The notes beneath the pieces are model-generated. The model ran no database searches and had not been told where the DNA came from. It saw only the letters and a program-made list of their open reading frames with translations. From NCBI RefSeq assembly GCF_001556045.1, contig NZ_LSIC01000162.1, forward strand, positions 1-52,727: DNA of 52,727 bases, read 5' to 3'. Shown here piece by piece: positions 18,241 to 21,455 of the stretch; within the stretch, counting starts at the first letter, position 1, and every line of letters starts with the position of its first letter. The stretch is from Bradyrhizobium sp. CCH5-F6. GTDB lineage: Bacteria; Pseudomonadota; Alphaproteobacteria; Rhizobiales; Xanthobacteraceae. A program made the translations under genes and the position numbers.

Positions 18241-19959
18241 TCACGAGTTCAGCAGAGAACCGGAGCGTTTGGATTCCGCGTCGAGTCGAAGGGTCGACTT
18301 CGCGGCGTTCAGCGCCGCGGCCAGGTCGTCGATGTGATACGGCTTGGCTAAGATCTGGATACCCGCCGCTTCGGCTTCATGGATCGCGGCCTCGGCGTAT
18401 CCGCTGGTCAGCAGGACCGGTATGTCGCTGCGCCGCCTGCTGATTTCCCGCGCGAGCTCCACGCCATTCATGCCGCCCGGCATCATGATGTCCGAGAACA
18501 CGACATCGACGGAGCGGCCGTCCGCCAGGGCACCGAGAGCTGCTGCGGCGCTGGCGGCCCGTGTAACTTCGTAGCCGAGCTGACCGAGCATCTCGCCAAC
18601 GAGTGCGGCCACCTCGTCGTCGTCTTCGACCAGAAGGATCTGGCCCTGGCCGTTCTTCTTCGGTCGCACCGTCCTGTTGAAATCGATCAGGTGTCGTTGC
18701 CTGGAAGCGAGATTCAGCGAGCGGGGCAGGTAAAGCTCGATGCTGGTGCCCTGACCGATTTGCGATTTGATGCGAACCGTCCCGCGCGACTGGGTCGCAA
18801 ACCCATGGACCTGTGCGAGTCCCAGTCCGGACCCCTTGCCGACGTCCTTGGTGGTGAAGAACGGCTCGAAGACGCGCGACAGGATTTCCGCAGGTATGCC
18901 GACGCCGGTATCGATGACCGACAGCCGTACATAGTCGCCGGCGATCTCCGGGTCATTGAGATCGGGCAGGTTCTCGCCGCGAACGAGGATGGTGCCGCCG
19001 TTCGGCATCGCATCCCGGGCATTGACGGCCAGATTGAGAATGACCAGCTCGAGTTCTCCGGGATCGACCTCCACCGGCCAAAGAGCATCCGGGAACTCGA
19101 ATTCGACGTGCACGTCGCCCCGCAGGCTTCGATCGAGCAGCTCGCGCATGCCGCCGATCTGCATGGCGACGTCGACCGCTTCCGGGCGCAGCGTCTGCCG
19201 GCGTGAGAATGCCAAGAGCTGCTTGGTCAGGCTGGCGCCGCGCTGCGCGGCCTGGATCATCCCGTCCATCAGGCGCCGGCGACGGTTTGGATCCGTCTGG
19301 CGGTCGAGCATGTCGAGGCCGCCGGAAATCACCATCAACAGGTTGTTGAAGTCGTGTGCGACGCCGCCGGTGAGCTGGCCGATGGCTTCGATCTTCTGCG
19401 CCTGCCGAAGCGTCTCCTCGACCCGGGCGCGCTCGTTCATTTCGAGACGCAGTTGCTCGTTGGCTTCCTTCAGCTCGCGTGTCCGTTCGACCACCAGCTT
19501 CTCGAGTTCCTGCGCAGTCTGCTCGCGCGCCGAAAGCAGGGCCCGGATCTCGTACTGCCGCCGCCGCGCCCGCATCGCCGACTGGATTGCGCTGGTCAGC
19601 GTGATCGGCTGCACCGGTCGCTCGAGCAGCGAAACGTTGCGAAGCAGGGCGACGATGTCGCGGCGCCAGGCGACCACCGCGGGCTGCTCACGATGGCTGG
19701 TGAGAACGATGAAGGGAAGGTCGGACCATGGCGCCTGGCTCGCGATCCATTCAGCGAGCGGCGCGGTGTCTTTCCCGAACAGTCCCTCCTCGGCGAGGAA
19801 GACCGCGCCCACGCCGGCACTCATCTCGCTGACGAGTTCGGGCAGACTTCGGCAGTTGACCGCCTCCAGGCTCGCGCCGCGGAAAAGCTCGGCCGATGCC
19901 GGTCCGTCGCGGCCGATCGGAGCGAAAATGAGGACGCGGTGATCGCGGTCGGCGCTCAT
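18241..19959 (-). CDS. Hybrid histidine kinase: pseudo-receiver, HisKA, HATPase, receiver
   Basis: A 572-residue soluble kinase coupled to the KaiC gene: its ATG 19959 shares one base with the KaiC stop (TGATG), with GGAAGGA upstream. Residues about 8-130 have a receiver-like fold, but the phosphoacceptor position reads FLAEEGL and the conserved lysine is Arg in LLERP, so this domain should not be phosphorylated. A coiled coil (about 135-185) leads to HisKA with GGVAHDFNNLL (His202). The ATPase part shows NLAVNARDAMP, DTGVGIP and GKGSGLGL. A C-terminal receiver has ILLVEDDDEV and acceptor Asp490 in FSDIMMPGGMNG. A pseudo-receiver in a kinase recalls cyanobacterial CikA, but here it is N-terminal. 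It probably reads the KaiC state (inference). Confidence 0.9.
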   Translation of the reverse strand: MSADRDHRVLIFAPIGRDGPASAELFRGASLEAVNCRSLPELVSEMSAGVGAVFLAEEGLFGKDTAPLAEWIASQAPWSDLPFIVLTSHREQPAVVAWRRDIVALLRNVSLLERPVQPITLTSAIQSAMRARRRQYEIRALLSAREQTAQELEKLVVERTRELKEANEQLRLEMNERARVEETLRQAQKIEAIGQLTGGVAHDFNNLLMVISGGLDMLDRQTDPNRRRRLMDGMIQAAQRGASLTKQLLAFSRRQTLRPEAVDVAMQIGGMRELLDRSLRGDVHVEFEFPDALWPVEVDPGELELVILNLAVNARDAMPNGGTILVRGENLPDLNDPEIAGDYVRLSVIDTGVGIPAEILSRVFEPFFTTKDVGKGSGLGLAQVHGFATQSRGTVRIKSQIGQGTSIELYLPRSLNLASRQRHLIDFNRTVRPKKNGQGQILLVEDDDEVAALVGEMLGQLGYEVTRAASAAAALGALADGRSVDVVFSDIMMPGGMNGVELAREISRRRSDIPVLLTSGYAEAAIHEAEAAGIQILAKPYHIDDLAAALNAAKSTLRLDAESKRSGSLLNS

Positions 19960-21455
19960 CAGGCCGGTCCTTCCAGGATATCCGTGCCGGTATAACGCGG
20001 ATTGCCCGAAAAGATGCCCATGAAGTCGGTGAGGGGCGGGCCGAGCTTGACGCCGGTGCTGCCGAGCCGGAACTCGCGGATGGTGTGCTCGTGGTTGCCG
20101 CTGCGCTTCTTGACGACGGACAAGGCGCGCCGCACCGATCCGCCGGACTCGAAATAGCGCAGCATCAGCACCGCGTCGCTCAGATAGCTGATGTCGAGCG
20201 GCGTATCCATCGGGCCGACCAGCCCATGTTGAGCGAGGATCAGGATGGTGAGAACGCCCTGCTGCGCCAGGTAGGTCAGCAGCTCGTGCATTTGCAGGAT
20301 GAGAAACCGCTCGTCCGGCATCGCGTTGAGGTAGCCGTTCAGGCTGTCGATGACGACCACGCGGGCGTTGTCGTCTTCAACGCTCCGGCGCAGGATCGCC
20401 GCGAACTCGCCGGGCGACAGTTCGGCCGGATCGATCTGTTGAAACCGGATGAGGCCGGACTCGACGTGCTTTTCCAGAGGCAGGCCGAGCGTCCGGGCGC
20501 GAGCTTCCACGGTGCCGCGGCCTTCGTCGAACGCGAAGAATGCGGCGTGCTCGCCGCGTTCCGCCGCCGCTATCGCGTAAGTGAGCGCGAGGGAGGATTT
20601 TCCCACGCCGGCGGCGCCGATGAACAGGGCGTTGGTGCCGCGCTCGAGCCCGCCGCCGAGGAGCTGGTCCAGGGCAGCGTTGCCGCTGGCCGTGAATTCG
20701 CCGGGAAAGGCTTTGTGGTGTTCCGCCGCCACGAGGCGCGGGAAGATCCGCAAGCCCCCCTTTGCAATCGTGAAGTCGTGGAAGCCGCCGCGGAATCGAA
20801 TACCGCGCATCTTGATCACGCGGATCCGCCGTCGCTCCGCCCCGTAGTCGATCGCGACCTGTTCGAGCATGACGACGCCATGCGCGATCGAATGCAGTTG
20901 CAGATCGTCCTGGGAGGACGAGAGATCGTCGAGGAGCACGACGGTGCAATTGCGGTTGGTGAAGAAGTGCTTCAAGGCCAGCACCTGCCGTCTGTAGCGA
21001 AGCGGGTTCTGGGCCAGCAGACGAAGCTCGGAGAGGCTGTCGAGCACCACGCGCGTGGGGTTGATCCGTTCGACTTCCTTGAAGATCAGACCCGTCGTTT
21101 CGTTCAATTCCATTTCGGCGGGATGGAAGACCGTGAGCTCCCGCTCCGGATCGAGCGTGGTCTCGGGCGGAACCAGCTCGAAGATGTCGACGCCGTCAAG
21201 CGACCAGCCGTGCCGCTGCGCGACGACGGTCAGCTCCCGCTTGGTTTCGGACAGCGAAATATAGAGCACGCGTTCGCCGTCGCGCACGCCCCGGAGGAGG
21301 AATTGCAGCGCGATTGTCGTCTTGCCCGTGCCGGGCCGCCCCTCATACAGATACATCCGGTTGGGGTCCAAGCCGCCGCCCAGGATGTTGTCGAGACCTT
21401 CGCTGCCGGTGGAAACGCGCGGCAAATCGGAGGCGCTCGTGGACGTACCGGTCAT
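19959..21455 (-). CDS. kaiC: KaiC-like RecA-fold ATPase with two KaiC domains
   Basis: A 498-residue double-domain KaiC homologue. CI has Walker A GRPGTGKTT (39-47) and a RVVLDSLSEL Walker B. CII has GAAGVGKSS (280-288) and RVVVIDSLNGYL. The position matching the cyanobacterial phosphorylation pair Ser431/Thr432 reads Ser423-Tyr424 (DISYLSDAV), and Thr418 aligns with Thr426, so a serine is kept and the threonine is replaced. The acidic pair after strand 2 reads SE in CI and DE in CII. Start ATG 21455 has AAGGGG nearby. No kaiA or kaiB is visible in the window; the coupled downstream gene is a hybrid kinase. Known KaiCs outside cyanobacteria include timing and stress roles; the role here is open. 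Confidence 0.92.
   Translation of the reverse strand: MTGTSTSASDLPRVSTGSEGLDNILGGGLDPNRMYLYEGRPGTGKTTIALQFLLRGVRDGERVLYISLSETKRELTVVAQRHGWSLDGVDIFELVPPETTLDPERELTVFHPAEMELNETTGLIFKEVERINPTRVVLDSLSELRLLAQNPLRYRRQVLALKHFFTNRNCTVVLLDDLSSSQDDLQLHSIAHGVVMLEQVAIDYGAERRRIRVIKMRGIRFRGGFHDFTIAKGGLRIFPRLVAAEHHKAFPGEFTASGNAALDQLLGGGLERGTNALFIGAAGVGKSSLALTYAIAAAERGEHAAFFAFDEGRGTVEARARTLGLPLEKHVESGLIRFQQIDPAELSPGEFAAILRRSVEDDNARVVVIDSLNGYLNAMPDERFLILQMHELLTYLAQQGVLTILILAQHGLVGPMDTPLDISYLSDAVLMLRYFESGGSVRRALSVVKKRSGNHEHTIREFRLGSTGVKLGPPLTDFMGIFSGNPRYTGTDILEGPA

Follow-up and report, generated by a model that had tools for sequence, protein, structure and literature searches.

The window analyzed here, a stretch of 52,727 nucleotides (nt) from Bradyrhizobium sp. 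CCH5-F6 (contig NZ_LSIC01000162.1, assembly GCF_001556045.1), encodes a KaiC-like ATPase and, directly downstream, a hybrid histidine kinase that starts with a predicted pseudo-receiver (Table 1). The TGA stop of kaiC (positions 19961 to 19959) and the ATG start of the kinase gene (19959 to 19957) have one base in common, as the initial annotation had read from the letters and the open reading frame (ORF) coordinates bear out. Overlap between the kinase start and the kaiC stop recurs in 55 of 65 pairs, by 4 bases in 36 of them, with starts chosen mechanically. The pair fits a group recognized in 2011 and is a real, widespread, and conserved module that is already in print.

Table 1. Features of the kaiC-kinase module in the window
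Feature	Coordinates	Strand	Remarks
kaiC	19959..21455	minus	498 amino acids; CI and CII KaiC ATPase domains; lineage without kaiB linkage
Ser423-Tyr424 codons	20184..20189	minus	position of the clock-KaiC S-T phosphosites, by alignment to solved KaiC
GGAAGGA, Shine-Dalgarno-like	19968..19974	minus	8 nt upstream of the kinase ATG and still within kaiC, near its end; by eye
Hybrid histidine kinase	18241..19959	minus	572 amino acids; start shares one base with the kaiC stop (TGATG)
N-terminal pseudo-receiver, residues 1-158	19486..19959	minus	(beta-alpha)5 fold; without acceptor Asp, without Lys
Single modeled helix, residues 118-220	19300..19608	minus	alpha5 of the pseudo-receiver continuing into the first DHp helix
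HisKA dimerization domain, residues 194-255	19195..19380	minus	Pfam; phospho-acceptor His202 at 19354-19356
HATPase_c catalytic domain, residues 299-413	18721..19065	minus	Pfam
Intact C-terminal receiver, residues 441-550	18310..18639	minus	Pfam; Asp490 at 18490-18492

HisKA, HATPase_c, and an intact receiver together make the downstream protein a hybrid histidine kinase. Its C-terminal receiver retains, at alignment positions whose roles were given by assignment, the acidic residues that follow its first strand as well as Asp490, Thr518, and Lys539. The N-terminal domain differs at the key positions, which were assigned by hand in an alignment of 143 sequences, that of the acceptor Asp from the strand pattern. 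The acceptor position is occupied by Ala56 (A, T, or S in 139 sequences, Asp in none) and the Lys position by Arg114 (R in 142, Lys in none). Where receivers have an acidic pair behind their first strand, this domain has Ala (117) and Pro (125). A degenerate receiver at the N terminus and a true one at the C terminus, both claimed in the initial annotation, are thus borne out. Other pseudo-receiver residues are invariant or nearly so, namely, R17, D18, E58, Q75, W78, S79, D80, N108, E113, R114, and P115, as well as the R130-x-R-x-R-Q motif in helix 5. Pfam returned no match at the curated cut-off for the isolated domain in 15 sequences (best E, 0.0022), and profile comparison gave a 96.3% probability with receivers versus 0.1% with KaiB. 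The N-terminal domain is, on its modeled receiver fold, a pseudo-receiver; the same model and the profile comparison rule out a KaiB/SasA-type N terminus. The predicted local distance difference test (pLDDT) values of the modeled helix 118-220 were 92 to 97 by block up to residue 180 and 58 to 75 for residues 181 to 220.

A Pfam scan of the window KaiC recovered two PF06745 stretches. Alignment to solved KaiC confirmed that Ser423 is followed by Tyr424 where clock KaiC has its S-T sites, which we take to be numbered S431/T432; the window protein therefore carries Ser-Tyr in place of the Ser-Thr or Ser-Ser phosphosites of KaiBC/KaiABC clocks. Of 63 aligned KaiCs of the lineage, 30 have SY at the two sites, 30 have TY, two have SF, and one has TF, and this spread over the lineage marks Tyr424 as a lineage trait and not as a local mutation. 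The P-loop lysines, Walker-B aspartates, and K-x-R motifs are kept in all 67 KaiCs aligned, Asp310-Glu311 is present in CII, and the first CI glutamate position is occupied by Ser69 (Ser in 60 of 67). The C-terminal end of the protein extends 7 residues past the last position aligned to solved KaiC, which has 24 more. The nearest named KaiCs among the matches listed are from Bradyrhizobium, at up to 90% identity.

That the pair might be something new was not supported. De Luca et al. described in 2011 a group of KaiCs with SY, TY, or SF sites that are systematically followed by a kinase, "Nt_HK," with a common N-terminal domain of its own, 19% identical to a receiver, 16% to SasA, and 10% to KaiB (PMC3164672). 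According to the available parts of that report, kaiB does not occur elsewhere in genomes of the group, the pair is cotranscribed in Ramlibacter, and the system was proposed to be an hourglass built on a family of KaiC-interacting kinases. The window pair resembles this "dark-blue group," exemplified by Rta_04330/Rta_04340 of Ramlibacter tataouinensis, in gene order (kaiC and then the kinase), in the receiver-like N-terminal domain, and in having no kaiB nearby; its Ser423-Tyr424 pair falls within the SY/TY/SF set, and no difference of kind emerges from the published description of the Rta pair (PMC3164672). The paper likened the N-terminal domain to both receivers and SasA/KaiB (PMC3164672), whereas profile and model favor the receiver fold here. 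A search of open-license papers found no later experimental work on the kaiC-Nt_HK group; further context is given elsewhere (PMC5520375, PMC10359499, PMC6848086, as far as these sources were available).

KaiC and the N-terminal domain were used as queries in surveys of 31 genomes of relatives, 385 genomes of the class, and 398 of the phylum, the last two overlapping. The pseudo-receiver domain was present in 13, 21, and 35 genomes, respectively. Pairing was counted for KaiC rows at E ≤ 1e-100, with rows common to the class and phylum searches counted once; three weak KaiC rows among the relatives, and 18 weaker rows and a fragment (G102:C458) in the wider survey, were left out. At most nine domain and four KaiC candidates were scored per class or phylum genome, and extra copies may be missed. 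Over the three surveys, the domain lay directly downstream of 64 of the 67 lineage KaiCs, a pairing far beyond chance, and 64 of 70 domain matches lay behind a lineage KaiC. The three unpaired KaiCs (G046, G487, and G700) together form a sister group. Genomes of named species behaved alike, with 77 pairs in the best 80 of at least 566 relatives; these paired loci include Methylobacterium, Caulobacter, Stutzerimonas, Xanthomonas, Achromobacter, and Variovorax, as well as planctomycetes and metagenome-assembled genomes filed under Acidobacteria and Verrucomicrobia. As for the three exceptions, L290 has a frameshifted kaiC and makes a 78th pair, L268 is apparently rearranged, and L292 shows no kinase before the contig end. 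No natural KaiC-kinase fusion was seen by Pfam label among the 120 matches listed of 3608 for one query. The kinase alignment used 70 of 71 sequences (L197, truncated at a contig end, was left out); L207 lacks a recognizable kinase core. Some genomes have two module copies (L178 and L185, L189 and L190, L191 and L197, L227 and L236, and L304 and L307), and one kaiC copy (G392, L190) has a stop within the match.

The module was claimed to stand without KaiB in view, and a local KaiB profile, positive in both KaiBC control loci, indeed found no match in the window, in any of the 64 module loci from the surveys, or in any of the 80 named loci, within the flanks covered. The scenario set beforehand as a test, in which relatives have an adjacent kaiB that was lost only here, was thus not borne out. 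Elsewhere in the genomes, KaiB (PF07689) was matched in three of the 31 relatives and in seven of 54 further genomes. The module occurs in 60 of these 85 genomes (10 and 50, respectively); KaiB was above cut-off in eight of the 60, one match being partial (G015), and absent from 52, which qualifies the 2011 statement on kaiB absence from such genomes. A 77-row KaiC tree from a quick search, with several long branches flagged, took in 57 of the 63 KaiCs aligned from the module, that of the window among them; these 57 make up one side of a branch (SH-like approximate likelihood ratio test [SH-aLRT], 99), apart from seven KaiB-adjacent KaiCs.

These features set the module apart from better-known Kai systems, including KaiBC/KaiABC clocks, which have kaiB in the cluster. 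CikA, too, is a Kai-associated kinase that bears a pseudo-receiver, in its case a C-terminal one. The CikA pseudo-receiver binds KaiB (PMC12632262, in the portion available), whereas the window kinase has an N-terminal pseudo-receiver, an intact C-terminal receiver, and no KaiB nearby, and is not of the CikA type. The comparison with CikA made at the outset hence stands at the level of a degenerate receiver fold; special kinship to the CikA or KaiA pseudo-receivers was seen neither among the 50 matches listed per fold search nor among the 21 PDB sequences matched. Like SasA, the window kinase starts with a KaiC-associated domain, the association here being one of gene neighborhood only. However, the SasA N terminus is KaiB-like (PMC3164672, from the parts at hand), whereas the window kinase has a receiver fold in place of a KaiB/thioredoxin-like domain and no KaiB beside it. 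Within the same bacterial group, Rhodopseudomonas (PMC4794148) and photosynthetic Bradyrhizobium (PMC3899966) also have kaiC with a downstream kinase, but these kaiCB-kinase operons, as described in the accessible text, include kaiB. In the 31 relatives, two KaiCs are linked to KaiB, and their identity is 27%.

Distances between loci connect the pseudo-receiver with KaiC more closely than with the kinase of which it is part. Over 63 loci, its distances correlated with those of KaiC at r = 0.87 and with those of its own kinase core at 0.62, and the partial correlations were 0.79 and 0.18, respectively. This contrast comes partly from swapped kinase types, as 12 of the 63 kinases are without the HDxxN motif. 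Among the 51 loci with HDxxN, the values were 0.68 for KaiC-pseudo-receiver, 0.59 for pseudo-receiver-kinase, and 0.05 for KaiC-kinase; among 33 short kinases, they were 0.62, 0.78, and -0.05. CI, which is more distant on the DNA, matched CII in correlation (0.865 versus 0.840). This co-divergence fits the pseudo-receiver as a candidate interface, and shared operon descent explains part of it.

The reading we lean toward, with moderate confidence, is one in which the kinase is gated by KaiC docking on its pseudo-receiver. As in its family, KaiC would form an ATP-driven double-ring hexamer, whose nucleotide or phosphorylation state the kinase would read by direct docking on the pseudo-receiver; the latter, in which the ordinary phosphorylation residues are missing, would serve as a protein-docking adaptor. 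The last pseudo-receiver helix is modeled as running unbroken into the DHp helix bearing His202, and docking and release of KaiC would therefore switch the protein between kinase and phosphatase activities. Judging by the domains, His202 would donate its phosphate to Asp490 in the C-terminal receiver, from which it would reach some HPt protein or regulator. The role would resemble that of SasA as a reader of KaiC, except that the adaptor has a receiver fold and is not KaiB-like and that most relatives have no KaiB. For KaiC, simple sensing of a state, energy or other, is more likely than timekeeping.

Several observations weigh against KaiC docking on the pseudo-receiver. The helix beside His202 is the low-confidence part of the model. 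Ser69 at the first CI glutamate position may make the ring ATPase activity different from that of clock KaiC. The 18 PAS-type kinases show no contrast (partial correlations of 0.57 for KaiC-pseudo-receiver, 0.24 for pseudo-receiver-kinase, and 0.56 for KaiC-kinase), and the far C-terminal receiver also correlated with KaiC at 0.78, where the pseudo-receiver of those pairs reached 0.88. The gene order KaiC-adaptor-kinase could yield similar co-divergence through recombination. Finally, six of the 70 pseudo-receiver kinases (in G386, G760, G684, G004, G005, and G011) have no lineage KaiC nearby in the fetched stretches. Such orphans would be expected if KaiC and the kinase were coregulated neighbors in one pathway that never touch, the pseudo-receiver being a structural or dimerization domain, and operon linkage may account for part of the co-divergence under this scheme as well. 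It is nonetheless unlikely, given that most copies of the domain (64 of 70) belong to neighbors of KaiC and that it is kept even as the kinase type changes. Among the orphan loci (L245 to L250), L248 to L250 have the same pair of genes upstream.

The roles might also be reversed, with the kinase sensing a ligand through the pseudo-receiver, or through PAS or GAF domains in relatives, and with the kinase or its receiver regulating KaiC as an effector. Pseudo-receivers elsewhere bind quinones (PMC12632262) or cyclic di-GMP (c-di-GMP; PMC7010744), as reported in the parts of these papers available, and some kinase relatives do have PAS or GAF domains. Against this, Pfam recognized no sensor domain in the window kinase, and it is the pseudo-receiver that co-diverges most strongly with KaiC; we give such an arrangement little credence. 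Equally improbable, in our view, is an hourglass in which slow autophosphorylation and dephosphorylation of Ser423/Tyr424 over hours would set a phase reported by the kinase, the scheme that De Luca et al. put forward for Ramlibacter (PMC3164672, in the text available). The hydroxyl residues that 60 of the 63 aligned KaiCs have at both site positions (SY or TY) would suit it, but Tyr replaces Thr, KaiB is missing near the module and rare in its genomes, KaiA was matched in none of 50 module genomes (10 of the 60 were left out; the control was positive in Synechococcus elongatus), and no rhythm data were found.

Docking of KaiC on a degenerate receiver may extend beyond histidine kinases. In the sister clade, a large protein is encoded directly downstream of each of the three unpaired KaiCs and of one more, in G919; three of these proteins were scanned and have a GAF-GGDEF-EAL architecture, and the fourth starts alike. 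These loci are L211, L243, L244, and L338, with SY sites in the three KaiCs aligned. The first ∼140 residues of the large proteins matched receivers with 75.7% probability, and all 35 aligned homologues, from Halomonas, Vreelandella, Aquisalimonas, and Marinimicrobium by name, keep the Asp, have Ile at the receiver Lys position, and are missing the acidic pair (positions by assignment). Although both domains are receiver-like, direct homology between this N terminus and the window pseudo-receiver was set aside, the direct match being weak (7% probability; E, 0.005). De Luca et al. mentioned other KaiC groups with GGDEF/EAL neighbors, and a receiver-like N terminus common to such neighbors goes beyond the description in the available parts of their paper (PMC3164672). 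A short frame that looks receiver-like by eye lies behind a more distant KaiC in G789. Tentatively, KaiB-less KaiC rings could in general, and perhaps ancestrally, have degenerate receivers as their docking partners, KaiC being a portable ATP-driven input unit that a receiver-fold adaptor would plug into HisKA/HWE kinases in the main clade or into c-di-GMP enzymes (GAF-GGDEF-EAL) in the sister clade.

Beside the module, a DUF2336 protein is encoded on the plus strand (16782 to 17954), and a small frame of ∼76 codons, noted by eye at approximately 17974 to 18205 on the same strand, is convergent with the kinase gene. ORF clustering over 143 loci, which could have revealed a third conserved partner gene, returned mostly shadow frames and synteny among near relatives.

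KaiC is held to predate KaiB and KaiA (PMC10076222, from the portion available), and the activity of KaiC with only a kinase as partner is relevant to the origin of clocks. The module is compact, would be easy to reconstitute, and is common: one or more full pairs, or a kinase of this type, were present in 11 of 31, 21 of 385, and 35 of 398 genomes surveyed. Both the co-divergence and the swap of outputs point to the pseudo-receiver as its candidate key piece, and the module may reveal how KaiC functions without the rest of the clock.
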